The notes under the pieces were generated by a model. That model ran no database searches. It saw only the letters and a list, made by a program, of their open reading frames with translations, and was not told where the DNA came from. A DNA stretch of 39,381 bases, taken from the NCBI GenBank assembly GCA_013036105.1, contig JAAXCX010000016.1, positions 1 through 39,381 on the forward strand, read 5' to 3'. The stretch comes from Vulcanimicrobiota bacterium (GTDB taxonomy: Bacteria > Vulcanimicrobiota > Vulcanimicrobiia > Vulcanimicrobiales > Vulcanimicrobiaceae). Below, in pieces: positions 7,413 to 35,646 of this stretch. The position numbers were made by a program, and so were the translations under genes. The stretch's first letter is position 1; every line of letters begins with the position of its first letter.

Positions 7413-9098
7413 GTGATCAAGCACGACGTCGTGGTCATCGGTGGCGGTTTGGCCGGCATGCGCGCCGCCGTGGAAGCGGCCGAGCGCGGAGCGGACGTCG
7501 CCATCGTCAGCAAGATGCACCCAGTCCGGAGCCATTCGGGCGCGGCCCAGGGCGGCATTAACGCCGCTTTAGGCAATACAGCCGAGGACACGCCCGCCAA
7601 CCACGCCTTCGACACCGCCAAGGGCTCGGATTACCTGGGTGACCAGGATGCGATCGAGGCCATGTGCGACGACGCCCCCCGCCAGATCATCTGGCTCGAA
7701 CACCGCGGCTGCATCTTCTCGCGCCTGCCTGACGGCAGGCTTGCGCAGCGCCCCTTTGGCGGCGCCGGGTCGCCCCGCACCTGTTACAGCGCCGACGTCA
7801 CCGGGCTGGTCATTCTGCACACACTTTGGGAGCAGCTCGAGCGCTTCAACGTCAAAGTCTACGAAGAGTATTTCTGCACGGCGCTCTGTACTGAGGACAG
7901 CGTCGGCGCCGGCGTCGTCGCCTACAACATGCGCAACGGCCAGCTCGAGCTAATCACAGCTAAGGCTACTATTTTTGCCACCGGCGGTTGCGGGCGCATG
8001 TACGCCAAGACGACCAACGGCTACGCCTCCACGGCCGATGGTCTGGGCATTGCGTTCCGCGGCGGCGTGCCGATCATGGACATGGAGTTCGTTCAGTTTC
8101 ACCCGACCTCGCTCAAAGAGAACGGCGTGCTGCTTTCGGAAGCGGCGCGCGGCGAAGGCGCACACCTCCTCAACTCGCTGGGCGAACGGTTCATGTTCAA
8201 ATATGCGCCCGAAAAAGGCGAACTCGCTTCGCGCGATGTCGTTTCGCGTGCGGGCTGGACCGAGATCATGCAAGGCCGCGGCGTCGACGGCTGCGTGCTG
8301 CTCGACTTGCGCCACCTGGGCCGCGAGAAGATCCTCGAGCGCCTGCCCCAGATTCGCGAACTCGCGCTCGATGCGACGGGCAAGGACGCCATCGACACGC
8401 CTATTCCTATTCTGCCGGGTATGCACTACACGATGGGCGGCATCGAGACAGACAAATTCGGAGCCACGCGCATTCCCGGGATCTACGCCGCCGGCGAAGC
8501 GGCCTGCGTCTCCGTGCACGGCGCCAACCGCCTGGGCGGGAACTCACTGCTCGAGACGATCGTCTTCGGCGCGCGTGCGGCCAAGCACGCTTGTGAGTAT
8601 ATAAAGGAAAGTGGCGACGTCCGCCCATCGGAGCGCACGCTCAAAGCCGAACAGGAACGCATTGACGGCTGGCTCTCCAAGAACGAAGGCATTCGCGCTC
8701 CACAATTACGCTCGCAGATGAACAAGACGATGAGCGAAAACGTCTTCATCTTCCGCAATGAGAAAGAGTTAACCAAAGCGGTCGACGACTTGCTGGAGAT
8801 TCGCAAAGCGTTCGACCGCGACGTCTACGTGATGGATAAATCCAAAACGTTCAATACCGACCTCGTCCACGCGATGGAAGTCGACTTCTTAATCGACGCC
8901 GCCATGTGCGTTGCGAACGGGGCGCTCGCGCGTAAAGAGTCGCGCGGTGCGCAAGCGCGCACCGACTACCCCGAGCGAGACGATGAGAAGTGGATGGTCC
9001 ATACGCTGGCGTGGCGGCAAGACGGACAGAATCCGCGCCTCGATTACTCCCGCAAAGTGACCATCACGAAATGGGCGCCGACTGTGAGGTCATACTGA
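7413..9098 (+). CDS. sdhA: Succinate dehydrogenase/fumarate reductase flavoprotein subunit
   Basis: The 561-residue FAD subunit that oxidises succinate to fumarate (or the reverse) at the membrane face. The Rossmann motif VVIGGGLAGMRAAVEAAERG is near the N-terminus. H41 in RSHSGAAQGG is the expected covalent FAD attachment histidine. Later come substrate and capping regions with PFGGAGSPRTCY, MHYTMGGIETD and HGANRLGGNSLLETIVFG, typical of SdhA/FrdA. The GTG start at 7413 follows an AAGAAGGT ribosome site. The stop overlaps the sdhB ATG (TGATG), so the subunits are translated together. The direction of the reaction in the cell cannot be judged from sequence. Confidence 0.96.
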   Translation: MIKHDVVVIGGGLAGMRAAVEAAERGADVAIVSKMHPVRSHSGAAQGGINAALGNTAEDTPANHAFDTAKGSDYLGDQDAIEAMCDDAPRQIIWLEHRGCIFSRLPDGRLAQRPFGGAGSPRTCYSADVTGLVILHTLWEQLERFNVKVYEEYFCTALCTEDSVGAGVVAYNMRNGQLELITAKATIFATGGCGRMYAKTTNGYASTADGLGIAFRGGVPIMDMEFVQFHPTSLKENGVLLSEAARGEGAHLLNSLGERFMFKYAPEKGELASRDVVSRAGWTEIMQGRGVDGCVLLDLRHLGREKILERLPQIRELALDATGKDAIDTPIPILPGMHYTMGGIETDKFGATRIPGIYAAGEAACVSVHGANRLGGNSLLETIVFGARAAKHACEYIKESGDVRPSERTLKAEQERIDGWLSKNEGIRAPQLRSQMNKTMSENVFIFRNEKELTKAVDDLLEIRKAFDRDVYVMDKSKTFNTDLVHAMEVDFLIDAAMCVANGALARKESRGAQARTDYPERDDEKWMVHTLAWRQDGQNPRLDYSRKVTITKWAPTVRSY

Positions 9099-13490: not shown

Positions 13491-15119
13491 TTAATGCTTG
13501 CCCAGGCCGGCTGCGTTCGCCAGCCAGTCGATAAACGATTGCGGCACAAACGCGCGTGCCCAGTTTTCATGAAATCGCAGCACCGCGACGGTTAGGGCCG
13601 AGAGTGTGACCACCAGCGCGTAAACACCGACAGAGCCTGTTTTTAGGATATCGAAAAGCGCCTTAAGGCTGGTTTCGCGTTCTCCGATGTCACGCAGTGC
13701 TTTGGTTGCGTCCTGCAGCTCCTTCGTACGCGAGGGGAAGTTTTTCAGTCGTTCGATGAGCAGGCTAAGTGCGTTCTTAGCGTGCTTGACTTCGCCGTCA
13801 TAGAGAATCGTAAAAAGCGCGATCGATGCGATAAGCGTGGGTATCCACAGGAGCCACAGCAGCAGTTTGCCGATATCAGCCGACTGCTCGAGCACCGAGC
13901 GCTTCAGCGGGCTCAGCTCTTCCACTAAGACCATCGTGATAACGACCAAAAATATCGGTAGATAGCGGCCTGCACTCTCCTTGAGCAAAAACAAAACGTC
14001 ATTGCTAGCGATGACCAAACTAGCGACGGCACTTCGCGTTATTTTCTCGTCTGGCACGGTCACATCGAGCGCTCCCTGCAGTCTCTTCCAGGCCTCGAGA
14101 TCGCAGCGAACGCTGCGTATCAGGAAGAAAAGAACCGGGAAAACAATGCCGAGCCACAAACCTGCCACGTAGAGCGAATAGGGAAAGTACGGCCCAAATA
14201 TTTGTCCGAACGAAAGTGGATCGGGTACCGACGGGGTCACCAGCCGGCTTGCGATTTGCAGGGCGTAGAGATGTTTAAAATTCTCGGGGAGCACATAGTA
14301 CGCGCACAGGACGAAAAGTGCGGCGAAGGCGCCGACGACGATCCATTCGTGTCGTTCTAAGAGCCGACTGTTGATCCGGCGGCGCCGGCTTGCCAGCGAC
14401 GGAATAACGTCTAGGTTGTGGAGCGCGAAGAGCGCGAGGAGCGCCGCGATCACAACACGCGAGGTGTCGAGAAAGACAACGTTTGTCCGCGTCGACTCGG
14501 CCCAATGACGCCACGAGTCCGAGGTGAGCGGTCCGTACGCGAGGTAACTGCCGGCCACGGCGAGAGCGATGGCCCCGCCGTACCAAAGAAGAATGGACCG
14601 CCACGTTATTGCGTCACCCGGCTTCACCGGCTCGGTGGAAATAGCGCTCGAAGTTCCTGCCGTACCGACGATTGTATCGATCTGCTCCTCGGGCGGCTCC
14701 GCGATTCTGGAAGTGGAAAGAGTGCGCGTCGTCAGCTCGACGAGCTCATCCAGTCGACTCTCAAGCGGTGGCGTGAGCGCATCGAGCCAGTGCACGCGCT
14801 GAATATAGTATTCCAGATCCTTATCGGGCAAGACGGATTCGATTCGAAACGGGACGATGGTCTTGCCGCGCTTGTAGGCCAGCTCGAGTTCGCTCAGAAC
14901 GTGTGGCGACGCATTGGCCTTCGACGAAAAGATGAGCAGTAGGATCTGCGTGGCTGCGATGGCCTCGACGATTTGGCGTCCGTAAGGAACACCTGCTATC
15001 GGATCCCGAGGAGCCATCCAGCACTCGATGCCCGCGGCCTCTAACCGGTCGCAGGCTGCCTCGGCGATCGTCAGGTCTTCACTGGAATAACAAATGAAGA
15101 CGTCGTGTGGTGCCGCCAA
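13491..15119 (-). CDS. TIR domain fused to about seven transmembrane segments
   Basis: A 542-residue protein. The N-terminal TIR domain (about residues 4-130) opens HDVFICYSSEDLTIA, has a BB-loop-like APRDPIAGVPYG, a strand ILLLIFSSKANAS, and then HVLSELELAYKRG. There E77 is in the place of the catalytic glutamate of NAD-cleaving TIR domains. A linker follows, then about seven hydrophobic spans near residues 175, 225, 258, 318, 391, 428 and 502, with a charged, partly coiled region (ALSLLIERLKNFPSRTKELQD) before the last. The TTG at 15119 is the only plausible start, since an in-frame TAA lies two codons upstream. A small membrane protein is encoded 63 bases upstream. TIR plus membrane domain suggests a signalling or abortive effector, but this is inferred. 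Confidence 0.85.
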   Translation of the reverse strand: MAAPHDVFICYSSEDLTIAEAACDRLEAAGIECWMAPRDPIAGVPYGRQIVEAIAATQILLLIFSSKANASPHVLSELELAYKRGKTIVPFRIESVLPDKDLEYYIQRVHWLDALTPPLESRLDELVELTTRTLSTSRIAEPPEEQIDTIVGTAGTSSAISTEPVKPGDAITWRSILLWYGGAIALAVAGSYLAYGPLTSDSWRHWAESTRTNVVFLDTSRVVIAALLALFALHNLDVIPSLASRRRRINSRLLERHEWIVVGAFAALFVLCAYYVLPENFKHLYALQIASRLVTPSVPDPLSFGQIFGPYFPYSLYVAGLWLGIVFPVLFFLIRSVRCDLEAWKRLQGALDVTVPDEKITRSAVASLVIASNDVLFLLKESAGRYLPIFLVVITMVLVEELSPLKRSVLEQSADIGKLLLWLLWIPTLIASIALFTILYDGEVKHAKNALSLLIERLKNFPSRTKELQDATKALRDIGERETSLKALFDILKTGSVGVYALVVTLSALTVAVLRFHENWARAFVPQSFIDWLANAAGLGKH

Positions 15120-16187: not shown

Positions 16188-16946
16188 CTAAAGAATATCC
16201 AACCGGCCGCCGTCCGCTACCAAGGTCGTGCCGTTGATGAAGCTTGCATCGTCGGACGCGATGAAACAGATCGCTGCTGCTAACTCTTCGGGCTTGCCGA
16301 CGGCGCCCTCGATTTTTTCCGCGCCGCTCTTCACATTGGGATTATTCCAAAGCATCGGTGTGTCTACCGCCCCGGGTGCTACGCAGTTCACGCGAATCTT
16401 CCGCGCTTCCATCTCTATGCTAAAACCCCGCGTGAAAGCCTCGATCGCGCCTTTCGAGGCGGCATACGGAACCACGTTCGCGGTTGTTTCGTGTGCGTGC
16501 ACCGAGCTGACGTTCACGATCGCGGAGCCGGGCGGCATGTGCGGTGCGCCGTATTTCGAGAAATAAAACACAGATCCCATGTTCGTCTTCATGACCGCGA
16601 AGAAGTCCGCTTCCGTCACGTCGACGATCGGCTGAAACGTCATCATGGCGGCGTCGTTTACGATAACGTTCAGGGAACCGTATGTTGCAATCGCTGTTGC
16701 AATTGTTGCCTGCACTTGTGCTGAGTCGCCGACGTCCAGCTCCGCCGCGATGGCCCGGCCGCCTGCCGACACGATCTGATCTGCCGTCGCCTGCGCTGCG
16801 TCTTGATGAAGGTCGGCGACGACGACGTTGCCGCCCTCGGCCCCCATGCGCAAGCATGTCGCCCGGCCAATTCCGGAGCCGCCCCCGGTCACGACACACG
16901 TCTTGCTGCTGAATCTCATTGCGGCGAGGCGTTCGGTCTTTCGCAT
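16188..16946 (-). CDS. Short-chain dehydrogenase/reductase (SDR, classical)
   Basis: A 252-residue NAD(P)-dependent oxidoreductase. The cofactor motif TGGGSGIG is near residue 20, VADLHQD follows strand 2 (the aspartate favours NAD), and NDAAM stands for the usual NAG. The catalytic set is the serine in VNVSS and the tyrosine and lysine in YAASKG. The C-terminal section (APGAVDTPM, then FINGTTLVADGG) is typical of the FabG/glucose-dehydrogenase-like group. The start may instead be the ATG at 16919, which would remove nine residues. It is divergent from the GH1 gene by 37 bases, so a shared sugar-related control is possible but unproven. Confidence 0.88.
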   Translation of the reverse strand: MRKTERLAAMRFSSKTCVVTGGGSGIGRATCLRMGAEGGNVVVADLHQDAAQATADQIVSAGGRAIAAELDVGDSAQVQATIATAIATYGSLNVIVNDAAMMTFQPIVDVTEADFFAVMKTNMGSVFYFSKYGAPHMPPGSAIVNVSSVHAHETTANVVPYAASKGAIEAFTRGFSIEMEARKIRVNCVAPGAVDTPMLWNNPNVKSGAEKIEGAVGKPEELAAAICFIASDDASFINGTTLVADGGRLDIL

Positions 16947-16983: not shown

Positions 16984-19125
16984 ATGCAGCAGGGCTTGCG
17001 GTTTGGCGTCGCCACAGCCGATCACCAGTGCGAAGCGTACACCGGTCAAGACGACGTCCGCGACGTCTGGGAGCGCGTGCGTGGCCTGACGCCGCGAGGC
17101 CGCGCGACGGACTTTTGGAATCGCTACCGCGAAGATGTCGACCTCGCTAAAAATTTGGGATGCCGCGCCTTTCGTCTCTCACTCTCGCGGGCGCGTTTGG
17201 AACCAGAGCCCGGTGCGTGGAACGACGAGGCGTTCGCGCACTATCGTGACGTGCTGACCTATATGCGCGACGCGCAAATGGCAACCGTGGTCACCCTTCA
17301 TCACAACACATGGCCGCTGCACGTACAGGCTGCCGGTAATGGCGCCGGAATGCTGGACGCCGCATTCCCTGCGCGCATGGCCGCGTACGCGTCCGAGGTT
17401 GCACAGCGTTTGGGCGATCTCATCGATTATTACGTCACGTTAAACGAGCCGAATCAACTGGTCTACGGCTACATCAAGGGTTTCTGGATGCGCGATTACC
17501 CCGTGCCGCCGGGCCTGGAACCATTTGCCACGTCGGAGCAACAGATGGACGCGGTGCTCACGCTCATTCCGAACCTATTTCGCGCGCACGCCGAAGCGCG
17601 AGCAGCGATCCGCAACCACCGCCCAGGAGCAAAGGTTGGCGCGAATCCGCTGGTCCTTGGGCTCCCACGCTGGTTGCAGCGCATAGTCGACCGCAATGCA
17701 ACGCACCTCAAATCGCCCGAACAGGCCCGGCGTCAGGCGGGACGGCTTTCGCAGCATTCGGTTTTGGATAGCGGCGCCGTGGATATCACGATCGCGCAAG
17801 TGACCATGACACAGTCGCGCATGGATCACGTGCTCTTCTCGGAACCATACTTCATCGCGCATCTTGCCGCTTTGCGTCCGGTGTCGCTGGCAGTACCGCA
17901 AGACTTGGAAACCTGGAAAGTGCGCGTCGCCGTGACAGCGGATACGCCGGCAGCCGATCGAGCCGGCGGACTCTTTCCCGCGGCATCCGTCACGTATTGC
18001 CTTAACGGGGGCGAAGCTATCGATGCGCTGCACGACGGTAAAGTCGATCTCGTGTTTGAAGACGACGTGCTATTGCGGCAGCATGTTTCGGCGGCTTTCG
18101 CGCTGACGCCGCTCCCCTGCCACGATCAACCGTTCGCCGTGGCGATGGCGCTCGGAAGCCGGACCTTGCTCAATGCCGTCGATCGCGCGCTTCGCGACTT
18201 CAAGAAGCGAGATCCAAGCCTTCCGCGCACGCACAATCGCAAGACGATCGCGTACATCGGCAAGCCTGCAGCCCAAGACGACGCGTTCGGCGCCGCCGAT
18301 GGGTTCCCCGATCTCGACAAGTCGCTGCAGGCCATACGCAAGCGCGGCCTTTTGCGCGTCGGCGTCCATCCAGGCGTCGACGGTTTGTGCACGGCCGACG
18401 CTGCGGGAGAGTACTGCGGGCTAGAGCCGGACCTCGCGCGGTTCATTGCCAAGCAGATTTTCCACTCGGATGATGCGAAGGTTCGATTCGTGCCCGTCAG
18501 CGGCAAACGCCGCTTGGGCGCCACACGTTCGCTGCTGCAGCTCTTCGACGGCTTTCGCAAATCGTTCGGATTGTTCGGCACACTTCTTGGTACGAATTGG
18601 TGGAATCTCGGCATGTCAGGAAAACTGCCGCGTTTTCTTTGCCCGGCCCAATGCATCGGCGCATTAGATTATGTCGGCCTGGATTATTATTGGGGAATCC
18701 CGTCATTTTGGCCCGGCGAGCTACATCGCCTGGCGGCAGCGTCCGAATGCCGCTATGCAACTGCGCCCGTGTGGCCCAACGTCCTCGATGAAATCCTGCG
18801 GGAAGCGCAAAGGCAATTCCCCGAGAAGCCAGTCATCGTCATCGAGAACGGCTGCGTGACCAGCGCAGATGGTTTCTCGCGCGCAAACTATTTGGATGCG
18901 CACATCCGCGAAGTGGAACGAGCCTTACATCGCGGCGTTCCGATCGAAGCATATCTCTGCTGGAGCATCACCTCCAACCGCGAATGGGGCCTTCCGTTCG
19001 ACGAGAACAGCGACTTCGGTTTATATCACATCGACCTCGATCGCGATCCCGCGCTCGCACGCGAGCCGACCGAGGCAAGCGCGCGGTATGCCCAAATCAT
19101 CGCGAACGCGTCCACCGAGGGCTGA
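16984..19125 (+). CDS. GH1 beta-glycosidase with an inserted, permuted solute-binding-protein domain
   Basis: A 713-residue protein, against about 450 for ordinary GH1 enzymes. The barrel starts LRFGVATADHQCEAYTG, with acid/base E155 in LNEP and nucleophile E621 in VIENG. These are 466 residues apart rather than about 190. Between them, after GLPRWLQRIVDRN (about 236), sits a periplasmic solute-binding (SBP_bac_3-like) fold in two pieces in reversed order. The first is its later part (VDITIAQVTMTQSRMDHV, LFSEPYF, then a second lobe with DGKVDLVFEDDVLL). The second is its usual opening (LRVGVHPGVDGL, then GLEPDLARFIAKQI, about 447-505). GH1 resumes at LGTNWWNLGM. The frame is unbroken and both catalytic residues are kept, so I read a real ligand-sensing glycosidase. 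No signal peptide is seen. Confidence 0.85.
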   Translation: MQQGLRFGVATADHQCEAYTGQDDVRDVWERVRGLTPRGRATDFWNRYREDVDLAKNLGCRAFRLSLSRARLEPEPGAWNDEAFAHYRDVLTYMRDAQMATVVTLHHNTWPLHVQAAGNGAGMLDAAFPARMAAYASEVAQRLGDLIDYYVTLNEPNQLVYGYIKGFWMRDYPVPPGLEPFATSEQQMDAVLTLIPNLFRAHAEARAAIRNHRPGAKVGANPLVLGLPRWLQRIVDRNATHLKSPEQARRQAGRLSQHSVLDSGAVDITIAQVTMTQSRMDHVLFSEPYFIAHLAALRPVSLAVPQDLETWKVRVAVTADTPAADRAGGLFPAASVTYCLNGGEAIDALHDGKVDLVFEDDVLLRQHVSAAFALTPLPCHDQPFAVAMALGSRTLLNAVDRALRDFKKRDPSLPRTHNRKTIAYIGKPAAQDDAFGAADGFPDLDKSLQAIRKRGLLRVGVHPGVDGLCTADAAGEYCGLEPDLARFIAKQIFHSDDAKVRFVPVSGKRRLGATRSLLQLFDGFRKSFGLFGTLLGTNWWNLGMSGKLPRFLCPAQCIGALDYVGLDYYWGIPSFWPGELHRLAAASECRYATAPVWPNVLDEILREAQRQFPEKPVIVIENGCVTSADGFSRANYLDAHIREVERALHRGVPIEAYLCWSITSNREWGLPFDENSDFGLYHIDLDRDPALAREPTEASARYAQIIANASTEG

Positions 19126-19192: not shown

Positions 19193-20074
19193 ATGAAATC
19201 TCTTTTTGCCGCCCTTCTCCTACTGGCGGTTTCTGATGCGTCATCGTTTCCGTACGTCATCGACTACAGTGGTCTGCCTAAAACGTACTGCGTCGAACGC
19301 GCCGGCAGGTGTATGGAACCTGCACCGCTCCTCCCTTTACAGGCCGGAGATCGCGTGAGCATCGTCCAGTCGGCAGCCGGCGAAAACAGTCCCACGATAG
19401 ATCTGTGGGTCGATGGCGCGCCGCATGTGATCGACGTCCACAACTCGCCGTTCTGCGTCGGCCGAATCGGTGGAAGCTGTACAGCGGCATTGGAGCAGCA
19501 GCCGCCAGTGGCGATTTCTTCGAACCAGAAAAAGATGCTAGACTCGGTGCGCACCGTCCTGCGCGACGCGAACAGCGATGCGCACTCACAGGTTTCTTTC
19601 TATCGAGGCTTAGAGCATCCGCTGCTGATTGCGATGCTGCGCTCGCCTAAACGCGCCCGAACGGGCACCACGGCCGAGCTGCGGTTCGCATGGCTTGGAG
19701 GCACACCGCCGTTTTACGTTACGGTTAAACGTGGCTCGGAAATCGTCGCGCAGCGCGAGGCGCTGTCAAACGAAGCGCGTTTTAACGTCCAGCTTCCGGA
19801 AGGACGATACGAACTCAGTGTGCGCGGTCAATCACCGCGCCCGGATGTGGAAAACTTCGATGTGATCGCAGCGCGTAGCCTTCCGCATCAGAGCGCCGCG
19901 GATGCTACCGCCCTGCAAACGCTCCCGCCACAGATCGCCGTCGTAGCGTACGCCGCGTGGCTCGCGAAACAAGGCCCAGAGTGGTATTTGGCGGCTTATG
20001 AAGCGCTGAACGCCGTACCTGATGATTTCCCGCCCGCGGCGCAACTGCGCCTGTATCTGACCGAAGGTCCTTAG
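19193..20074 (+). CDS. Exported protein of unknown function, convergent with the CHAT protease
   Basis: A 293-residue protein with a signal peptide (MKSLFAALLLLAVSDASSF). The first half has paired cysteines (YCVERAGRCMEP, then FCVGRIGGSCTA). The middle has an Ig/Fn3-like beta section (LRFAWLGGTPPFYVTVKRG, then FNVQLPEGRYELSVRGQ). The C-terminus is helical (AAWLAKQGPEWYLAAYEALN). The family is unknown to me. Its last 170 bases are also read on the other strand as the tail of the CHAT protein. The location suggests a link to the CHAT protease, such as substrate or scaffold, but there is no direct evidence. Confidence 0.72.
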   Translation: MKSLFAALLLLAVSDASSFPYVIDYSGLPKTYCVERAGRCMEPAPLLPLQAGDRVSIVQSAAGENSPTIDLWVDGAPHVIDVHNSPFCVGRIGGSCTAALEQQPPVAISSNQKKMLDSVRTVLRDANSDAHSQVSFYRGLEHPLLIAMLRSPKRARTGTTAELRFAWLGGTPPFYVTVKRGSEIVAQREALSNEARFNVQLPEGRYELSVRGQSPRPDVENFDVIAARSLPHQSAADATALQTLPPQIAVVAYAAWLAKQGPEWYLAAYEALNAVPDDFPPAAQLRLYLTEGP

Positions 20075-22817
20075 TAACCAGATCACCGTCGCCGAAGATC
20101 ACGTACGGCGCCCAGGCGAAAGGGTGGTTGAAGCGTGGATCATTTGAGCGGATCATCGCGAGCTGCGCTTCGCGCAAAGCTTGTGCTGCGGTCTTTCCTG
20201 ACTTCATGGCGGCAAAAAATCGGGGAGTGATTTGCGGCGCGGCATCGTCGTCGACTTGCCACAGCGTCACCGAAATTGCCGGCGTACCGGCGTAGAGAAA
20301 TGCGCGCGTCAGGCCGCTAATGCCCTCACCGCTAGGATTGGTGACGATTCCCGTATCGCAGGCCGAGAGCGTCACGAAATCCGCGTTGAGTTTAAGGCCG
20401 AAGACATCGGCCATCGTCAGGAAGCCGTCGCCGCGCTCCGGATGCGCGAGCACGATGGCCGGCTGGGTGAGGCCCTCGATCTGATCCGGCAATACTGCAT
20501 GGGTGGCGAACAATAGATACCGGTAATTCTGAATCGTTCCGCCGGAATTCAAGCTGAGAATGTGGGCCCGGGTGGCGTCATCGCCCGAGATGACGCTATT
20601 TGCCGGCGCGCGCAACGCATCGCGTACCGCGTTCGCTTCAATTACCGTTCCAGGCAACTGCGGAAAAATACCCGACGCCGTGCTCGGCCGCATCGCCTTC
20701 AACTGTAAACTTCCAAGGCTTGCCGGAACGCCGTCGGGTTGCGGTACGATCGGCGGTGAAACAACCTGCATGCCCGGCGAGCCAAAACTGGGATTCGCAA
20801 AGGCCAACAACGTCTGCGGCGCGCTCCGATGATTGCTGTAGGAGGCGCTTACGACGCCCAACAGCGAGGCTGAGGAAACGTATGCGATTGCGACATTCTC
20901 AATCAGATAGTGTGGGCGCTCGGGATTTCTAGCAGGATCTTGGGTTGCCAATGCCTCGAACGGCATCTCGTAGAGCGACCCGGACGGAACGACAACCAAG
21001 CTTTTTGCTGAAAGCAGCGCTCGGGCGGCTTCTTTAGGAACCAACTGCCGGTACAGGGCAAAGCTGTCACGCAAAAACCCCGGCAAATCACGGGCGGGCG
21101 TTCGCGTTTGTGCAAAGATCCTTTCGATATGTTGATGCAGTGCCGCGACCAGCGCATCGATACGCCTACGCGGCGACAACCTGAGCATCTGCATGTGCTG
21201 CCGATCAACGACCCAGAGAACGCTGCGCTCGTACAGTAGGTCGTAAATCAGCATGACTTCCCCATGCTTCAGGACTTGGCGCTGAATGTAGTCGAGTGGG
21301 ATGGGCCGCGGATGACGAAGGGCATAATACCGAGGATAACTCGCCTTGACCCGCTTATCGAGAGCGTCCTGCTTTTTGATTGCGGTGTCCAGGTCCGTCT
21401 TAGCCGAGTTCAACGTTATGTGATCGGGGTTCGCGCTCGCAAGAGCTTTGCTATATCGCTCCTGATCGGACCTTACGACTGCGCCGGCAAAAGTCTCTTG
21501 CTGAACAATTTCCGCTGGCACGCCGCCGAAATGTTGAGCTGTACTCGCCCCGATCTCTTCCAGCACGCTGCGCCCCGCTTTGCGTTCGAGAATCTGCAGC
21601 GCCTTACGATCATAGCCCTTACGTGGATGCCTTTTGTCGAGGTCCACTAAGAACGCAATGTACTCATCGTACACGAAGAGAGCGGTCCCAAAAAAAGAAG
21701 TGCGCTCGCCTGGGGAGTACAGCCCGGCCCGAAGACGTTCAACCCGAGCGAGCGCTTCATCATAGTGCCGCTGCGCGGAAACTTCGTAGTTCGGCCCAAG
21801 TTTGGAATCGGCGAAAGCCAACACGCTTAGATCCTTCCAAACGGACGGAAGCCGCAGTGCGACGTTTAACCGAACAGCTGCCGCCGAGTCACGCCGGGCC
21901 GCAGCATATTTTCCGAGGTTCTTTTCAATGTCCGCGATGCTTCCGAGCGCGGCAGCAGCACCGGGGCGGTTGCGAACTTTGCGAAAGAGCGCAAGCGCGT
22001 TGTGTTCCGCTGCAAGCCCTCTTGCAAAAGCTCCGCGGTTGGACTCGATGACGCCGATTCTCCGGAGGTCAGCAGCCTCGCCACTCCGGCTGCCCTCCCC
22101 TCGATAAATTGTAAGAGCCTGCCGTTCAGAAGAGAGTGCATCCGCGTAGCGACGGAGCCCGTTCTCGATCTCCCCGATCATTGTCAGGTCGGAAGCCTCT
22201 AGTTCTTGAACGGGCACCATAACTTCGCGGTTGAGCGCAAGGGACTGCTGCTCCGCAGCGAGTGCATCGGTGTAGGCACCGAGGTCTTGCTCGATGCTCC
22301 CTATGATCCCCAAAACACTGGCTTCGCGGATTTGGTAGTTCATTTTTTCAAGGACAGAGGTTCCGTCGAGTCCACTGCTCATCTCGCGATAGATCGACAG
22401 AGCCAGCTGTGCCGCGACAAGTGCCTCAGCGTATTGTCCAAGAAAGTCTTTGAGCGTTGCAATACTTTCGAGATCCGTAGCCTCAGCGAGCGTTGCGCCT
22501 GTCTTTCGATTGATCGTCAAAGCCTGCTGCCACGACGCCAGTGCCTCCGGGTACCGGGCCAAAGCGTCCTGAACCGTTCCAATACCGGTAAGAAATTGCG
22601 CGGCGTAAACTGAGTCGTTTTTTTTTCGCGCTTCCGCGAGCCCGGCTTGCCAAATTCTTAAGGCGGCCTCGTAGTCACCGTTTCGGTAAAAAGACGAAGC
22701 CAAATCAAGCTGTCGTTCTAATGTTTGGACGTCAGGCGTAGCTACCGCAGTTGGCGAAGGTGCCGGTGACGCAGCCAGTGCGAGGATGAGGAACGATCCT
22801 GCTACAATTCGCCTCAT
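19905..22817 (-). CDS. Exported TPR-CHAT caspase-like protease
   Basis: A 970-residue protein. A signal peptide (MRRIVAGSFLILALAASPAPS) is followed by tetratricopeptide repeats over about residues 37-330 (for example SSFYRNGDYEAALRIWQAGL). A linker comes next, then a CHAT (caspase HetF associated with TPRs) peptidase domain. The catalytic dyad is H773 in LFATHA and C820 in LSACDTG, followed by the typical GTPAISVTLWQVDD stretch. The domain ends near FGDGDLVTK (residue 916). The last 54 residues are basic, low-complexity, and encoded antisense to the convergent exported gene. The gene is the fourth of the minus-strand array, 22 bases after the RHS-like stop. CHAT enzymes cleave partner proteins in conflict and gliding systems; the substrate here is unknown. 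Confidence 0.9.
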   Translation of the reverse strand: MRRIVAGSFLILALAASPAPSPTAVATPDVQTLERQLDLASSFYRNGDYEAALRIWQAGLAEARKKNDSVYAAQFLTGIGTVQDALARYPEALASWQQALTINRKTGATLAEATDLESIATLKDFLGQYAEALVAAQLALSIYREMSSGLDGTSVLEKMNYQIREASVLGIIGSIEQDLGAYTDALAAEQQSLALNREVMVPVQELEASDLTMIGEIENGLRRYADALSSERQALTIYRGEGSRSGEAADLRRIGVIESNRGAFARGLAAEHNALALFRKVRNRPGAAAALGSIADIEKNLGKYAAARRDSAAAVRLNVALRLPSVWKDLSVLAFADSKLGPNYEVSAQRHYDEALARVERLRAGLYSPGERTSFFGTALFVYDEYIAFLVDLDKRHPRKGYDRKALQILERKAGRSVLEEIGASTAQHFGGVPAEIVQQETFAGAVVRSDQERYSKALASANPDHITLNSAKTDLDTAIKKQDALDKRVKASYPRYYALRHPRPIPLDYIQRQVLKHGEVMLIYDLLYERSVLWVVDRQHMQMLRLSPRRRIDALVAALHQHIERIFAQTRTPARDLPGFLRDSFALYRQLVPKEAARALLSAKSLVVVPSGSLYEMPFEALATQDPARNPERPHYLIENVAIAYVSSASLLGVVSASYSNHRSAPQTLLAFANPSFGSPGMQVVSPPIVPQPDGVPASLGSLQLKAMRPSTASGIFPQLPGTVIEANAVRDALRAPANSVISGDDATRAHILSLNSGGTIQNYRYLLFATHAVLPDQIEGLTQPAIVLAHPERGDGFLTMADVFGLKLNADFVTLSACDTGIVTNPSGEGISGLTRAFLYAGTPAISVTLWQVDDDAAPQITPRFFAAMKSGKTAAQALREAQLAMIRSNDPRFNHPFAWAPYVIFGDGDLVTKDLRSDTGAVAPRAGNHQVRRSALHKPPNTTLGLVSRATRRTLRRRSVAGAFAGR

Positions 22818-22839: not shown

Positions 22840-25020
22840 CTATTGCTCTTTGATAATTGCTATGGCCCAATCGTCCTGATCCGTGCGCGGAGCGATCAAG
22901 TTCACCAGGATTTTGCCCGACCTCCAATGAGGGATACCGTCGGCGCTCGTCCCGCGAACGAAACCCGCCGGAAGCGAGGCGCTCACGTCGGCCGCAAGCT
23001 GATCGACGTTACGTTGACCGACGTACGATGGCAGGTCAACGCATCCAAACACCCATTGCGCGCTCGTATCGCGCGCTACCAAGCAGTTCTGCACCAACGA
23101 TCCGTCCAGCACGGCCGTACTTTTGTAAAATGCGCCTGCCACGGAAGTGCGTTCCTGAACCCCGCGAAATCGCGCGAAGTTTTCAAGTGCCGCCGGAAGG
23201 ACTTGGTTGAAAAATTCTCTCCAGCGGCTAATTTGGGTCGCCGAGACGCTGACTTGGGCCGGCGCTTCGTTGCTGACTGAAATGCTCCAATCGTCCGAGT
23301 TATAAGCCGGAGAACCCAGAGAAACGACGATGTGATTGGAATTCTCCCAGTGCGGCGCAGGCGTATCGTTCGTCCAACGCCGCGTGAATTGCGGCAGCGC
23401 AGCGGACAGATCCGCAACGAGCGCACCGAGCGACGCTCTTCCCACGTACTGCGGAGCGTCGTTGCAGGCCATTTTCCAAGCCCCGCCGCTTTGCAGAATG
23501 TAGCAATTGTTAACCAAAGACGTTCCACCCAAGCCGACGACATTGAATCCGTTCACGTCCGCGTTGGCGCTGCCTTTCATCGCGGAAAAATTCGCCGCCG
23601 CCGCCTGGACCAGTTGCGCCAGTACAGGCCGCCACTGATTAACCCGCTCGCTATCGGGTTGCGCCTGAGCAAAAGCGGCTTGCGACTCTCCGTACATGCG
23701 GTTGTCGTAGAATGCCCAGCCCAGCCGGCTATAAAATGCCGCCGTCTTGCCCGGCAATTGCAATACCGAACCCTTGACTGTCCCTGCTGATAAAACTGTA
23801 CCCTGATTATCGTAAAGCGTATCCGACGTGGAGACGCCGTCGCTTTGCAGTATCTCCTGGACGAAATTGCCGTCGTCCGAGGAGAGATAGACGTAAAATT
23901 CCGTGCCACCCGCAGCGTGCACGCTAACAAGTTTGCTATTGGTATAGCTATCGAATGAGCCGTAGGTGTATGTGGTGACCCGGCCATCCGTGCGGATAGC
24001 CTTCGCAACCCGACCGGTCTGCCCGTCGTATGCTAAACGCATTGAGCTACGATCCGGGAATTGAACGCGCGTTAAATCGTGTATGCCGTCGTAGTCATAC
24101 GTATAGACGTTTCCGCTAAAGTCAGTATAGCGCGCAAGATCGTTACCCCAGAAAGTATAGCTACGATTCTTCTTGTTGTAACGGTATTCGTATTTTGCGA
24201 CCCGGCCGCTCGCGTCACGGACTCGCGCTAACGAGCCATCACTATTGAACGCTAGAAGAAATTCTTTCCCGTAGTTATCGTAAATCTCTTTCGGCTGTTG
24301 CTTTGACGTATAACGGATAGCAACAAAATTGTTCCTCGAATCCCAGATACGCACGAGCAGCCCCTTCAAATCGAAGGTCTCAAACTCGCCGCTGAAAGCC
24401 CCCACGGATCCGTAAGCGCTGAATGTCTTGTTGAGTGCCTGACGCTGGAAGCCCTCAGGCACCCGTTCGAGCTTCTGCTGATGCGCTGAATCGAAAAATG
24501 CTTCCCCAACGGGAGGCAAGGCCGGCTCGATCAACCCTTGATTCCGGTATCGGTTCCACTCGCTCTTTAGAGTAAGCTGATCGCGCAGCTTGAGCGCATA
24601 GACACTTCGCGCTGCATCGCTGCCGAACAGATGCGTCTGGTTCGCGGCTGCCATGACCTCGGCAGCGATTTGGCTTTGCGAGCGCAACCCGCTTTGCGGA
24701 ATAAATGTGGTCTCACTCCCGCCGCCATAGTCTTTGGCTAGGATAGAGCCGTCAGCCTCAAACTCGAGGGAGGTTTCATAGCGAGATCCCCAGCCGAAGC
24801 CAAACCACCCCGTATGCGAGCTTTTTGATTGGTATATCCGCTCGATTCGCGTCAGCGGCGATGATGACGTCGCAAAGTCGGTCGACGTGAGAATGAAATT
24901 GCCGATCGATTCGTTGTGACCAAGCTGCACGTCATCCCGAATCCCCGCATTCGCAGGCGCAGACAGAGCCAAGGCTATGAGAAGCCCACTTGCCAGGGTG
25001 ACTGCGCGCCGCGGGTTCAT
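22840..25020 (-). CDS. Exported RHS/YD-repeat-like protein with tandem C-terminal domains
   Basis: A 726-residue protein. The ATG at 25020 overlaps the upstream NTPase stop (ATGA). It has a signal peptide (about residues 1-25, ending SAPANA). The N-terminus then looks like the opening of RHS proteins (IGNFILTSTDFATSSSPLTR, then HTGWFGFGWGSRYE), followed by YD-type beta repeats (KYEYRYNKKNRSYTF, DFSGNVYTYDYDG, DGRVTTYTYG). It is far shorter than RHS shell proteins (over 1000 residues), and no toxin domain or RHS core autocleavage motif is seen. Instead the C-terminus holds two related domains of about 105 residues, each with NF, LVxNC, a W then CxD, YVG, LxADLSAxLP or a variant, PHW and DDW. 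A cargo, adhesive or sensing role is possible. Confidence 0.8.
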   Translation of the reverse strand: MNPRRAVTLASGLLIALALSAPANAGIRDDVQLGHNESIGNFILTSTDFATSSSPLTRIERIYQSKSSHTGWFGFGWGSRYETSLEFEADGSILAKDYGGGSETTFIPQSGLRSQSQIAAEVMAAANQTHLFGSDAARSVYALKLRDQLTLKSEWNRYRNQGLIEPALPPVGEAFFDSAHQQKLERVPEGFQRQALNKTFSAYGSVGAFSGEFETFDLKGLLVRIWDSRNNFVAIRYTSKQQPKEIYDNYGKEFLLAFNSDGSLARVRDASGRVAKYEYRYNKKNRSYTFWGNDLARYTDFSGNVYTYDYDGIHDLTRVQFPDRSSMRLAYDGQTGRVAKAIRTDGRVTTYTYGSFDSYTNSKLVSVHAAGGTEFYVYLSSDDGNFVQEILQSDGVSTSDTLYDNQGTVLSAGTVKGSVLQLPGKTAAFYSRLGWAFYDNRMYGESQAAFAQAQPDSERVNQWRPVLAQLVQAAAANFSAMKGSANADVNGFNVVGLGGTSLVNNCYILQSGGAWKMACNDAPQYVGRASLGALVADLSAALPQFTRRWTNDTPAPHWENSNHIVVSLGSPAYNSDDWSISVSNEAPAQVSVSATQISRWREFFNQVLPAALENFARFRGVQERTSVAGAFYKSTAVLDGSLVQNCLVARDTSAQWVFGCVDLPSYVGQRNVDQLAADVSASLPAGFVRGTSADGIPHWRSGKILVNLIAPRTDQDDWAIAIIKEQ

Positions 25021-28000
25021 CGGATAGTGCGGGCCCGCCCGCGCAAGACTCGAATCGCTTGATCGATTAGGGTGTTTGCTTCCGGGTTGGAAAGGTCGCT
25101 CTGAGTCAATATCCGGTTGGCCGCCATTTGCGGCGTCAGCGCGGTAGCCAGATTCCAAACGTAGACGCTGCCATCGACACTCCCCAGCACAACATCTCTC
25201 CCGTCAGGAGTAAAAACCGCGCTCGCAGTTCCGGCCGGAGGCCGGACGGCGCCGAGGAGCTCGCCCGTATCGCGATCCCACAACTCAGCCGATCCGTCCT
25301 TCGAAAGCGTTAGGACGTAGGCGGCATCGCGCGGCGCGAATGCAATCGAAGCTATCTCTCCCCAGCCTGGATGCTCGAGCAGCAATGCGCGCAGTTTGCT
25401 TCCGGACATATCCCAAATCTTGATCGTGGGATCATCGCTATGCGCGAAGCCAAGCCAGCGATCGTCGCCCGAAAAGGCCATCGCGGTAACGTGTCCCTGG
25501 CCCGTGTAGGGCCGCCGGAAGAACCGGTCGCCGTTGATCGGGAAAAAGCTTATCGTGCCGTTGTCTGCGCCGGCTGCGTAGCCATATCGGTGCGAACCAT
25601 GCGCTAACGCCGCGGCCGTAATGCTCGAGCTGGAAAACAAGTTCTTGCCGGTGCTGAGATCAAAGATGCTTAAGGTCGCTGTATCCGCTGCAAAGAACAT
25701 CGCATGTTTGCCGTCGTTTGCGATTTGGATCCGGCGCGGAGCTGTAGCCCAGCTCTTTGGATCTTCCGATACGATCCGCTTGCCATTGAGTGACCAGATG
25801 AACCAGCGGTTGCTCGTGTAGGGCGCTCCGGCCAAAGGATCCGCACCGGTTTGTATAGCGAGAACGCCCCGATTCGGAACAAACGCGGCGTCCGTGAAGC
25901 GTTTGCCGCGCATGGTCGGCCGAATCGTTTGGGTTAGCGACGGGTCGTTACCTGCGACATTCCAAACTCGCAATGCGCCACCACCGACCGTAAGCGCACG
26001 TTGGCCGTCGCCGCTGAACTCAGAAGTGACCACCCAATCCGTACCGGAATGCGGCAAGGTCGCCTCTTCGCTCAGCCCTCCTCCGGCGTTCCATAGTACT
26101 GCGGTACCGTCGCGACTTCCGGTGAGCATTTTCGTACCCGATGGGTTAAATGCGATCGACTCCACGGAGCCGTGGTGAGTAGCGCGCGCGCGCGATAATG
26201 CGATTCCCGGGCGCCAGAGGCTCATTCGACCGTCGTCTCCGGCTGTGGCCAGGAGTGCGCCGTCCGGCGAGAACGAAGCTACGGTCACCGCTGTTTTTTG
26301 GCCAACGCCAAATGAGGCGATCTGCCTGCCGTCGATCGCCCACAACGCTACGGCGCCGTTGTCGTAGGTGGTCGCGATCTGCGTTCCGGCCGGGTTAGCG
26401 ACGGCATCCAAAACGTTTGGTGAACCGAATTGCGCGCCTAACGTCGCCGCAATATTCCCGGTCGTAGCGTCAAGGACGTAGACCTGTGTGGAACTGGATG
26501 CAATCACCCGGTCTCCCGGCGCGAATGAAATCGCCGTGACTTCTGCATGCGAGTCGTTACGCGAAGCTATCACTCTGTGCTGTCGTAAGTCATACAGCGC
26601 CACCGTACCGTCGGCGCCGCCGGTGGCGAGTAACGTGCCGCTTTGATTGACCGCTACATGTAAAAGGTGCGTATTGCTGACGGCGGCTAGGAGCGGGCTC
26701 CGTCCACCCTTCCAATCCCAGATCAAGAGTCTTCCGTCGGCCAGCGCGCCAATCACCGTCCCATCGTCAGGCGTGAACACGACGTCGTTTACGTAAGCGT
26801 CTACCGATCGCGATGCGACGCGTGAACCGGTTGTCGAACGCCAAACGATCACTTTTCCATCGGCTCCGGCTGTCGCCAAGTAGGTACCGCCGTGACTGAA
26901 TGTTACGGCATTGACGCGTCCGGTGTGAGCAGACGCGCCGTTCCCCAATGCAGTTGCGCGGCGGGTGGCGCCGCTGCGGAGGCTGTGCAGCCGGCCTGAG
27001 CCATCTTCCGCTACCGTGACCAGATAGCGGCCGGTGGGATCGAACGCGAGGGCCGTGATGCGATCGTTGGCGTCGTAATCTTGCATCGGCTTTTGAAGCA
27101 GCTGTCCGGTGCCATTCCACAACGTTACGGAACCGTCCGCGCCGGCGGTCGCAATCTCGTTCGTTCCGGGAGCCGGATTGAATTGCACCGCCGTGACCGG
27201 CGCATTGCGGTCTGCTAGAACCGATCCTTGCCGCATGGAGATTTTATCAAGCGCTTGCGGGAGCAAGACACGCAAATCCCGATCGTTCGGGTCGAGGACG
27301 TAGGCGGCGCCCAAATAGAGGGCCGCATCATCGCTCTGGCTGTTAAGTAGCGCGCGCCTTCCGGCTTCGACGAAGGATTTCGCCCGTTCGTTCTGCGCAA
27401 CGCCCGTCTGCTGCATGGCTTGGTGCATACTGCCCAGAGCTTGCTGATTCTTGACTGCGAGCTGCCCGGCTAAATCTTGCAGCTTTGTTTTTTGAGAGTT
27501 CAGCTGTCCTTCTTGTATGAGCAGAAGCCCATTTTTAGTACTGAGCCCGGTTTTTTGGGTCTGTAGGGTGCCGTTTACTTTCGTGAGCCTGCGGGCCAAC
27601 GTGTTCACGTCGTTGATCTTGCTCTTGAGTTGCAGATTTAAACTTGCTTGTTGCCGGTTTAAACTCGCTGCCCAAACCACCGACGCCATTGCGATGAGCG
27701 CGACCAAACTGACAACAACGGCGAAAACGCGGGTGCGACGTGCCAAGCGCTGCGCCGATGCCGCGCGGGTACGCTCTACCTCGGCGTCACGTTTGGCGCG
27801 TTGCTGCTCTTCCTGCTTAAGTTTTTCGTCAGCTAGAGCGGCAAGGCTGTCGCCGAAGAGTTTTTCAACCAGTTCAAATTTTCCGCCGTAGCGTTTCGCC
27901 CACGCCTCCGTGCGGGGGAGCTCGTTCCACCACTCCCATCGATCCTGTACCTGATCGAGCGGAAGTGTAACCTTCTGCGAGGATGACTTCCGTTGAAGGA

Positions 28001-29339
28001 GCGCCAGCAATGCGCTGTACAGCCGGCCATCGTCCTCTTCGGCAAACAGCCAGCCCATCTCGGTTTTTCCGCCGACGAGATTTTCGTGCCGCGGCGCGCT
28101 GATCTTGTACCAGTGACGCAATAAGGCTTCGTGCACGACGTCGACTCGCGTGTCGGGCTGCAACGTGTGGACCGCAGCCGGCGTCGTAACGATGAACGAA
28201 CAATCGTCGGCTCGGAACCGATCCAGAACGACCACGAGATCATCGTGGGACATGCCGGTTTCGGCGGACAGCTGCGAGAACGTGATCGCTCGCCGCGTTG
28301 CGCGTCCCTCTTTGTCGACTTCGCTGAGCGCGCGGAACGTTTGCTCCACCGCCAGCTCAACGCCGGGAATCGACTGCATCACCTGATCGGCGTGTTGTGA
28401 AAGAGCTCCCGCGATGCCGTGGATTTCCTGATAGTCGCTCAACGTGAGGGTGCGCGGTTCGGCGGGCGATCGCTGCCCGGCATGCTCCCATAAACGCGAC
28501 AGGCAGTGCTGCAATACCGGGAGTTGGTCCAACTCGCTTCCGGCGTCGTTCAACAGACGCTCGACTAAGTCTGAGTCGATCTTCGCCCCTGCCTTGTCGA
28601 TAGGTTGCCTGATGACTTCCTCGCGCTGGTCACGCGTTAGCGAGGGCACCAAGAATTGCGAGACGCTCACCGCTTCGGGCAGGCCTTGGAATTGCGCACA
28701 ATCGCCGATAAAGTCCGAGCGCATCGTAATGAGCACGTGCACGGGTCGCGAAGACATGCGGCTGCCCTCTAAGAGCAGCTGGACGAAATTGGCAGCTTTG
28801 TCGCGCCAGCGTGAATCGCTGGCACGGCCGTACTCACCGCCCGGATTGGCGTAGCGAAAGAGTTCTTCGAATTGGTCCACAACGAGCAAGAGCGATTTGC
28901 CCGCGATACCCGGCACTTGATCCAGCGCTTTCGCGAGCCCGTAGCTCGAGCGCTCGAGAGCAAACCCGATCAGCTCTCGTCTGATCTCCGGGTCCACCTG
29001 CGTATCCGCTGACTGCGTCCGCGTTGCCAGAGCGGCAAGCGCATCCGCCAATGCCTCCACCGGCTCGTTTCCGGGACGAAGCGTAAGCGATTCCCATCTG
29101 GGACCGCTGACATCGGCGCTCTCCTGCTCGAGAAGCGGTAAAAGTCCGGCGCGCACGAGTGACGACTTGCCGCTTCCGGAGCTGCCCACGACCGCGACAA
29201 AACGGCTGCGGTCGACCAAACGATAGAGCGCGAGCTGTTGCTGCTCGCGGCCAAAAAAGTACTCGCGATCGGCAAAATCAAACGGCCGCAATCCCGCAAA
29301 GGGACGACGTTCCGAGACGTGCGACTCGGACGCGATCAT
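25017..29339 (-). CDS. nSTAND1 NTPase with one membrane span and about 16 WD40 blades
   Basis: A 1440-residue protein. The N-terminus GLRPFDFADREYFFGRE, Walker A at 52-60 (GSSGSGKSS) and Walker B near 151-160 (LLVVDQFEEL) are typical of the nSTAND1 clade. ITMRSDFIGD (about 204-212) and a winged-helix-like section follow. A basic stretch (RLARRTR) leads into one membrane span at about 537-558, then a coiled-coil-like region (561-650). About 16 WD40 repeats follow (roughly 712-1420, for example LATAGADGKVIVWR), enough for two propellers. Basic residues before the span suggest NTPase inside, WD40 outside. The ATG overlaps the TIR stop (ATGA) and the stop overlaps the RHS-like start (ATGA). STAND proteins act as ligand-triggered switches. 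The ligand is unknown. Confidence 0.93.
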   Translation of the reverse strand: MIASESHVSERRPFAGLRPFDFADREYFFGREQQQLALYRLVDRSRFVAVVGSSGSGKSSLVRAGLLPLLEQESADVSGPRWESLTLRPGNEPVEALADALAALATRTQSADTQVDPEIRRELIGFALERSSYGLAKALDQVPGIAGKSLLLVVDQFEELFRYANPGGEYGRASDSRWRDKAANFVQLLLEGSRMSSRPVHVLITMRSDFIGDCAQFQGLPEAVSVSQFLVPSLTRDQREEVIRQPIDKAGAKIDSDLVERLLNDAGSELDQLPVLQHCLSRLWEHAGQRSPAEPRTLTLSDYQEIHGIAGALSQHADQVMQSIPGVELAVEQTFRALSEVDKEGRATRRAITFSQLSAETGMSHDDLVVVLDRFRADDCSFIVTTPAAVHTLQPDTRVDVVHEALLRHWYKISAPRHENLVGGKTEMGWLFAEEDDGRLYSALLALLQRKSSSQKVTLPLDQVQDRWEWWNELPRTEAWAKRYGGKFELVEKLFGDSLAALADEKLKQEEQQRAKRDAEVERTRAASAQRLARRTRVFAVVVSLVALIAMASVVWAASLNRQQASLNLQLKSKINDVNTLARRLTKVNGTLQTQKTGLSTKNGLLLIQEGQLNSQKTKLQDLAGQLAVKNQQALGSMHQAMQQTGVAQNERAKSFVEAGRRALLNSQSDDAALYLGAAYVLDPNDRDLRVLLPQALDKISMRQGSVLADRNAPVTAVQFNPAPGTNEIATAGADGSVTLWNGTGQLLQKPMQDYDANDRITALAFDPTGRYLVTVAEDGSGRLHSLRSGATRRATALGNGASAHTGRVNAVTFSHGGTYLATAGADGKVIVWRSTTGSRVASRSVDAYVNDVVFTPDDGTVIGALADGRLLIWDWKGGRSPLLAAVSNTHLLHVAVNQSGTLLATGGADGTVALYDLRQHRVIASRNDSHAEVTAISFAPGDRVIASSSTQVYVLDATTGNIAATLGAQFGSPNVLDAVANPAGTQIATTYDNGAVALWAIDGRQIASFGVGQKTAVTVASFSPDGALLATAGDDGRMSLWRPGIALSRARATHHGSVESIAFNPSGTKMLTGSRDGTAVLWNAGGGLSEEATLPHSGTDWVVTSEFSGDGQRALTVGGGALRVWNVAGNDPSLTQTIRPTMRGKRFTDAAFVPNRGVLAIQTGADPLAGAPYTSNRWFIWSLNGKRIVSEDPKSWATAPRRIQIANDGKHAMFFAADTATLSIFDLSTGKNLFSSSSITAAALAHGSHRYGYAAGADNGTISFFPINGDRFFRRPYTGQGHVTAMAFSGDDRWLGFAHSDDPTIKIWDMSGSKLRALLLEHPGWGEIASIAFAPRDAAYVLTLSKDGSAELWDRDTGELLGAVRPPAGTASAVFTPDGRDVVLGSVDGSVYVWNLATALTPQMAANRILTQSDLSNPEANTLIDQAIRVLRGRARTIR

Positions 29340-30862: not shown

Positions 30863-31059
30863 AATAAAGCCCTGAGTGGACAAAAGGCTATTTCGGCAGG
30901 GTGCAGGACCCTCCTCGCCGGATTCAGCGCCGATGTTGCCCGGTTAAGGTTCTTTACGAACTTCTAACAGCAAAGCGAGCTATCGCTAACCACCCCGCTC
31001 TGTCGCTTGACACCTCCCCGGAGGGACCGGTACATGAGCCCTTGGCGGCGGCTCTTTCT

Positions 31060-34794: not shown

Positions 34795-35646
34795 TCACGG
34801 ACGTACGGTTATGAGGGCGGTCTTACAGAGGTTCGTTCTTCCTGTGTTTTCACTTACTGCCTGGCCGGGCTTCAACGCGTCTAAATGAAAAGCGACGTCT
34901 TCAGCTAGGCACTGACGCGAAAGATCGATTTGATCGCGATCCATAACGTTGGGGTCCTTCGTCGAGACGGTGCCGATTAGAGATCGCGGAAGTACGAACG
35001 CGCGTTCCTCTGCCGGACCAAGCGGTTTATCCCCGTCTTCAACGCTAAGTAAAACCGCCCACACGGCGCCGACCGAACGGCAACAATTGTAAGCAACCGA
35101 GATCGTCGTGATTGGCTGAGTCGTGCCGTTGCGAATGGTTATCCGGCGACTCTTTGAACGAGCCGGCTCGGGGTTTGCTCGAAAGCTTCTCGGCCCGGTA
35201 GTCGTCCCGTCGACGATAAGCTGAAGTTCCGGACAGTACCGCATCGCAACGTTCCGGCCGTCGACTGCTAGGTGGCAGTCGTACTCATCCACCCAATCGT
35301 CGTATTCCAGCATCATCTGGCACGGCAAGACGATTGAAGAACTACGGCAGGCCAGTTGGTCGAGTGTCAACTGGCAAGAAACGTGCGTCCCGGGCACATG
35401 CGGTCCGCAGGGAAATAAGCGCTTTGCCACCGGCGGCAGCGATGGACTCAGCGGGTCGACTATCCATTCCGCCCATTTCATCGCTTGCCGAGTATTCAAG
35501 AACTGGTAGTCCGGAAAGTTCAAGCTCGCTACGCGCGCAGGAAATACCGAATGCTTAAGGTTGACCCACGCCGGCGCGTTGTCCGCAAAGCACAGAGACG
35601 GCAGCATCGCAAAGAGAAACAGCAGCGCTGCGCTTACCTGCCTCAC
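34795..35646 (-). CDS. Cysteine-rich exported protein of unknown function
   Basis: A 283-residue protein starting at a GTG whose first bases overlap the stop of the DUF4071-like gene (GTGA). It has a signal peptide (VSAALLFLFAMLPSLCFAD). The mature part has about ten cysteines (for example FPCGPHV, LACRSSS, VAYNCCRS), two beta-rich sections (ITIRNGTTQPITTISVAYN) and DGRNVAMRYCPELQLIVDG. The end is LCKTALITVRP. Disulfides are likely after export. No family is recognised. The coupling to a cytosolic TIR-like/TPR protein is notable because the two products should lie on opposite sides of the membrane. It is convergent with the trypsin-like gene, 19 bases away. Confidence 0.75.
   Translation of the reverse strand: MRQVSAALLFLFAMLPSLCFADNAPAWVNLKHSVFPARVASLNFPDYQFLNTRQAMKWAEWIVDPLSPSLPPVAKRLFPCGPHVPGTHVSCQLTLDQLACRSSSIVLPCQMMLEYDDWVDEYDCHLAVDGRNVAMRYCPELQLIVDGTTTGPRSFRANPEPARSKSRRITIRNGTTQPITTISVAYNCCRSVGAVWAVLLSVEDGDKPLGPAEERAFVLPRSLIGTVSTKDPNVMDRDQIDLSRQCLAEDVAFHLDALKPGQAVSENTGRTNLCKTALITVRP

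Follow-up and report, generated by a model that had tools for sequence, protein, structure and literature searches.

A single reading frame, open throughout 16984-19125 (+) of the window (the whole stretch of 39,381 nucleotides that was analyzed), encodes a protein of 713 amino acids in which a glycoside hydrolase family 1 (GH1) enzyme is interrupted by a solute-binding protein (SBP) domain. The gene is single-copy within its source genome, which belongs to Candidatus Eremiobacterota, a phylum of little-known soil bacteria. Along the chain, the GH1 strands β1-β5 are followed by the later part of the SBP domain, a linker, the first part of the SBP domain, and the GH1 strands β6-β8. The features of the locus are as follows.

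16188..16919, - strand: SDR-family dehydrogenase gene, 243 amino acids, divergent from the GH1 gene and 64 bases from it (Pfam adh_short_C2)
16984..19125, + strand: whole gene, GH1 with an inserted, circularly permuted family-3 SBP domain, 713 amino acids (Pfam, NCBIfam, model)
16984..17751, + strand: first part of GH1, residues 1-256, comprising β1-β5 and the helices 229-240 and 245-256 toward the insert (Pfam GH1 at 7-221; model secondary structure)
17446..17448, + strand: catalytic acid/base E155, NEP motif
17758..18210, + strand: native C-terminal part of the SBP, residues 259-409, comprising the end of lobe 1, a hinge, lobe 2, a hinge and the last helix of lobe 1 (profiles; order-restored matches; model)
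17803..17805, + strand: Thr274, predicted ligand contact, counterpart of Ser164 of Mycobacterium tuberculosis GlnH (alignment; PMC6069109)
17818..17820, + strand: Arg279, predicted α-carboxylate contact, counterpart of GlnH Arg169 (alignment)
17860..18129, + strand: lobe 2, residues 293-382, missing as a clean deletion from several relatives (alignment)
18061..18063, + strand: Asp360, predicted α-amino contact, counterpart of GlnH Asp250 (alignment)
18211..18321, + strand: linker joining the native C- and N-termini of the SBP, residues 410-446, of variable length (model; alignment)
18322..18519, + strand: native N-terminal part of the SBP, residues 447-512 (NCBIfam PRK11917; order-restored matches)
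18511..18513, + strand: Arg510 at the second junction, counterpart of GlnH Arg147, which contacts the Asp/Glu side chain (alignment)
18520..19122, + strand: second part of GH1, residues 513-713, comprising α5 and β6-β8 (profiles; model)
18844..18846, + strand: catalytic nucleophile E621, ENG motif

Six further genes in the window, at 13494-15119 (-), 19908-22817 (-), 25020-29339 (-), 29339-30883 (-), 33639-34772 (+) and 35646-37070 (-), have conflict- or signalling-type domains and encode two TIR proteins, a CHAT-TPR protein, an nSTAND1-WD40 protein, a trypsin-like peptidase and a TPR-S/MAP3K_TRAF_bd protein. An RHS-repeat/DUF6531 protein gene (22843-25158, -) lies between the CHAT and nSTAND1-WD40 genes. 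Conservation of the GH1 gene does not extend to this conflict- or signalling-type neighborhood. Scanning the whole window against Rfam and for tRNAs gave no matches.

Both parent families were recognized by Pfam, each in two stretches: Glyco_hydro_1 (PF00232; E 1.7e-38, 132.7 bits against a cut-off of 22.6) and SBP_bac_3 (PF00497; E 1.2e-10, 41.7 bits against a cut-off of 26.4). The cut-offs of the GH1 equivalog models in NCBIfam were not passed by the 713-residue protein. Among 42 aligned members of the family described below, the acid/base E155 is Glu in 41, and the nucleophile E621 is Glu in all 42. One short member (L085, on G124:C110) has NAP instead of NEP at the position equivalent to E155. 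Its metagenome-assembled contig has a name indicating approximately 2.9x coverage, and the same sequence contains unknown bases; the NAP may represent a sequence error or a dead copy. No export signal is apparent in the window protein, whose chain begins directly at GH1 β1, as judged from the sequence rather than by a signal-peptide predictor.

The order of the SBP pieces is reversed relative to ordinary SBPs. The later part (residues 259-408) corresponds to positions 94-248 of the NCBIfam model PRK11260, and the first part, located downstream of it (residues 445-510), corresponds to positions 28-93 of PRK11917. In all eight ordinary SBPs from the same phylum that served as the comparison set (L093-L100), the region matching residues ~419-511 comes first, and the region matching ~260-410 follows after a few residues. 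In L093, for example, residues 419-511 align with target positions 32-122 and residues 262-410 with positions 126-275. The natural order gave two crossed matches, whereas putting the order back gave one continuous match of approximately 220-230 residues (best E 6.8e-21), and the order-restored domain also matched solved SBPs (E 3e-16). Two unrelated partial SBPs are ruled out because the restored order yields a single continuous full-length match. The cut is located inside lobe 1, between the strand ending FVPVSGKRRL and the helix leading to LDSGAVDITIAQ. The inserted domain does not follow the linear order of SBP_bac_3 (N-terminal part of lobe 1, lobe 2, rest of lobe 1); it derives from that family by permutation and is not an ordinary member. 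That the domain is a genuine circular permutation, opened within lobe 1, is as good as certain. The new ends neighbor each other in the native fold, and a domain permuted in this way can therefore occupy a loop of a host protein.

An AlphaFold2 model of the full-length protein, built on a 41-member family alignment, had a pLDDT of 86.8 and a pTM of 0.87; the SBP blocks scored mainly 85-96, and confidence was low at residues 434-437 of the linker. The corresponding values for a short member of 600 residues (L075) were 83.7 and 0.85. In the model, the barrel strands are residues 6-10, 62-66, 100-107, 149-154, 217-221, 564-571, 617-621 and 654-660, and the insert of approximately 250 residues lies between the fifth and sixth of these. 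It occupies the β5-α5 loop, after β5 and the extra helices 229-240 and 245-256 and before α5 (517-534). The top 50 Foldseek matches against the PDB were all GH1 enzymes, with 4r27 as the best, in agreement with a (β/α)8 barrel; none of these 50 matched the SBP part separately. According to the model and the alignments, the inserted putative sensor and the output domain are both intact, as in a domain-insertion switch. Since the β-to-α loops form the catalytic face in barrels such as GH1, the SBP insert should be near the active-site mouth in the predicted fold.

A sequence-only reading of this DNA had described one open frame, two retained catalytic glutamates (E155 and E621), a permuted SBP order and an insertion within the barrel. 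All four points stand: the frame is uninterrupted, the glutamates are at these positions, the native SBPs of the phylum carry both pieces in the opposite order, and the insert lies between β5 (217-221) and β6 (564-571). That reading had also considered that the two SBP pieces might be partial domains that fail to fold together; the predicted structure, in which the whole chain reached the above pTM, gave no indication of this.

We searched 98 relatives first and then 149 genomes of the phylum with a family threshold of E ≤ 1e-40, and 52 of the 149 contain a match. A conserved family of this kind, at which the sequence-only reading had guessed, is thus present in the phylum. A scan of genome contigs, which is suited to close relatives and was the sole search reaching other phyla, gave 20 loci in metagenome-assembled genomes from several sampling projects. 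The 42 aligned members comprise 33 full-length proteins and nine without lobe 2. Their identity ranges from 86% (G006, same genus) to approximately 48-50% (L069 and L070), with the junctions unchanged. An assembly error or a chance join of two genes has a negligible probability: identical junctions are found in all 42 members, which come from many assemblies and three family-level groups, and a rearrangement was looked for and not found. Chance and misassembly are excluded because tens of independent members share the junctions, and the architecture, the permutation and the family are as good as certain. Among the phylum genomes, there was no insert-free family match except for fragments truncated by contig ends, and neither a relative with an empty insertion site nor a close plain GH1 was present. 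The nearest plain GH1 enzymes are only ~31-36% identical over the matched parts, and plasmid GH1s show at most 36% identity. Judging from the closest plain GH1 enzymes, the insertion is, in the data at hand, as old as the subfamily itself.

Two members have unusual gene arrangements. In L083 (G113:C58, ~8119-8775), two overlapping frames share the coding of the family protein; the sequence suggests a frameshift, either present in the gene or introduced by the assembly. Two full-length family members that differ clearly from each other occur in the genome G099, on contigs C3 and C46 (L080 and L081).

In M. tuberculosis GlnH, the amino acid ligand is bound at its amino and carboxyl groups by Ser164, Arg169 and Asp250 and, in the case of Asp, at its side chain by Arg147, Trp232 and Thr162 (PMC6069109). 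We mapped these contacts through alignments with the Glu-binding 5eyf and the Asp-binding PEB1a, the GlnH sequence itself being placed by motif reading; Ser164, Arg169, Asp250, Arg147 and Thr162 correspond to T274, R279, D360, R510 and Q272, respectively, and Trp232 aligns with no clear counterpart. T274 is Thr in 27/33 full-length members and in none of the nine short ones; R279 is Arg in 33/33 and 8/9, respectively; D360 is Asp in 29/33 full-length members and is absent along with lobe 2. Most full-length members therefore have the predicted S/T, R and D contacts of family-3 amino acid SBPs. R510 is invariant in all members, including the short ones, as are S286, Y289 and E481, and Q272 is nearly invariant where GlnH has Thr162. 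Since R279 and R510 persist without lobe 2, the conservation is partly structural.

We infer that the protein is a cytoplasmic retaining GH1 β-glycosidase with a built-in Venus-flytrap sensor, and that its catalysis is controlled by a ligand; on the sequence evidence, we regard this reading as somewhat favored. The family-3 amino-acid-type SBP, with its new ends side by side in lobe 1, would sit on the catalytic face of the barrel, and binding of a small ligand would close both lobes; the likeliest candidate is a free amino acid or a compound closely related to one. The lobe movement would then be transmitted via both junction helices (245-256 and 517-534) to the loops around the active site and either raise or lower the glycosidase activity. 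An amino acid is a more likely ligand than a sugar. The correspondence of R510 with the GlnH arginine for Asp/Glu side chains led us to consider an acidic amino acid as a candidate ligand; we did not settle on it because R510 is also invariant in the short forms and a Gln occupies the position of GlnH Thr162. Without an apparent signal peptide, the domain would meet the millimolar amino acids of the cytoplasm. Such concentrations would saturate a typical high-affinity SBP unless the affinity of the domain were lower.

Lobe 2 (residues ~293-382) is absent from the nine short members, where it is cut at the two hinge strands, and much of the linker is also gone in five of these nine. Lobe 1 and the catalytic residues are retained where lobe 2 is lost. 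We placed the short forms on a midpoint-rooted tree of the GH1 columns only. The tree needs four changes, of which the starred branches alone force two. L072 and L073 adjoin the full-length L054, and the L075 group, L084 and L074 are separate. A single loss, in which all short forms would make up one clade, was rejected (AU test, p 8e-8), and lobe 2 appears to have been excised about four times. Loss is the likelier direction because the deepest members are full-length, the root being a midpoint root only. Loss on about four occasions implies that regulation is not essential everywhere. In the lineages without lobe 2, control of the enzyme by a ligand has probably ceased, with lobe 1 still needed structurally.

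An unbiased comparison of short and full-length members over 547 positions found the strongest drop in conservation at T274, which supports, at the sequence level, a ligand-binding sensor in the full-length forms. The events linking the loss of lobe 2 with that of T274 number two to four and cannot reach significance on the tree; statistical proof that one loss drags the other along is out of reach with so few independent pairs. In the clade f3 (L055, L056 and L058), lobe 2 is kept while T274 and D360 are both lost, suggesting that the ligand differs or is no longer bound. Such patterns are compatible with a site that works in the majority of full-length members and has been abandoned in others. 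Between close pairs, the GH1 parts have a dN/dS of ~0.02-0.12; values for lobe 2 are mostly ~0.1-0.5, and those for the linker span 0.18-0.98. The ratio is well below 1 in both SBP lobes. The insert is thus under constraint, as estimated from these sequences, and this constraint is weaker than that on the barrel. Mean identity is 0.40 in lobe 2 and 0.67-0.74 in the barrel.

The same data bear on a purely structural role, in which the permuted SBP senses nothing, lobe 1 serves to stabilize the barrel or to form a dimer interface, and lobe 2 survives as a decaying remnant. Such a role would account for the repeated loss of lobe 2 with retention of lobe 1, the faster evolution of lobe 2 and the invariance of R510, S286, Y289 and E481 even in the short forms. 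However, T274 and D360 are kept in most full-length members, lobe 2 is under purifying selection, and the change of T274 in all short forms, and together with D360 in f3, would be left unexplained. We consider a structural insert unlikely. The location on the catalytic face, the predicted amino-acid-type binding residues and the intact catalytic residues would also suit a role on the substrate side, with the SBP acting not as an allosteric switch but as an extended subsite for the aglycone of a glycoside, for example an amino-acid-conjugated sugar. This role is rather improbable: the lobes of Venus-flytrap SBPs normally enclose the ligand completely, and the full active site is kept in the short forms without lobe 2.

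The only conserved neighbor across the loci compared is the SDR gene. Members of the SDR cluster occur at 26 of 41 loci, mostly directly adjacent to the GH1 gene and divergent from it. A close SDR relative is present in 39 of the 149 genomes, and 37 of these 39 also belong to the 52 genomes that carry the GH1 gene (Fisher p ~2e-20, a value that ignores kinship). The nearest solved relatives of the SDR are varied SDR enzymes, including glucose 1-dehydrogenases, and one possibility is that it oxidizes the released sugar. The conserved divergent SDR gene could also point to a protein partner, with the inserted domain docking the SDR or perhaps a transporter. This is very unlikely, given that the short forms keep the SDR neighbor without lobe 2 and that no ABC transporter gene was recognized among the conserved neighbors. 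The persistence of the SDR gene beside the short forms indicates that lobe 2, at least, is not needed for the SDR.

Of the functions considered, control of catalysis by a ligand is the most probable. There is about an even chance that the family represents natural, phylum-restricted glycosidases that are ligand-gated through a permuted Venus-flytrap domain inserted in a TIM barrel, with sensor-less sister variants as unregulated controls. If ligand-gated, it would be a natural and conserved counterpart of the switches that engineers have made from permuted binding domains. Matched pairs with and without the ligand-binding lobe would make the gain and loss of allostery by domain insertion directly testable, and the family might provide a ready template for metabolite-controlled glycosidases. 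Bench work is merited, as both regulated-looking and sensor-less versions of one enzyme occur within the family.

The component parts are known, and the arrangement is known from engineering. The cutting out of lobe 2, which is half of the binding cleft, with lobe 1 kept is new here. In the open-access literature, we found no report of a natural permuted SBP inside an enzyme, an earlier description being possible, and nothing relevant on GH1 enzymes of Candidatus Eremiobacterota. GH1 β-glycosidases, such as BGL167 (4r27, the best solved match) and BglA from Thermotoga maritima, have the same barrel, strand order and counterparts of E155 and E621, and they share the sugar-site residues Q15, H107, N154, W660, E667 and W668 with the window protein, whereas the ~250-residue β5-α5 domain is absent from plain GH1 enzymes. 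Family-3 amino acid SBPs (PEB1a 2v25, 5eyf, GlnH 6h1u and AncQR/AncCDT-1) have the same fold elements and T/S, R and D contacts. In contrast to them, the domain in the window protein is permuted, lies inside an enzyme and has no apparent signal peptide, and compared with GlnH, Thr162 is replaced by the nearly invariant Gln272.

The nearest natural relative in function is MltF, in which an SBP-type N-terminal domain switches the lytic transglycosylase on when muropeptides bind (PMC10746161). MltF thus has a natural SBP-type domain controlling an enzyme that cuts sugar bonds, and its structure (6hqh) matches the order-restored domain by sequence. However, its regulatory domain is fused end to end, being neither permuted nor inserted, and the enzyme class and compartment differ. 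Two engineered proteins share the logic of a Venus-flytrap and an output domain joined at two points. XynA-XBP271, a chimera of a xylanase and a xylose-binding protein, is approximately three-fold more efficient with xylose (PMC4896006). In the other, a circularly permuted GltI, also a family-3 SBP, was placed in a non-permuted red fluorescent protein (PMC6335823), and a permuted family-3 SBP thus lies inside another protein, as in the window family. Both are laboratory constructs, whereas the family described here is natural and conserved, and its switching is putative.
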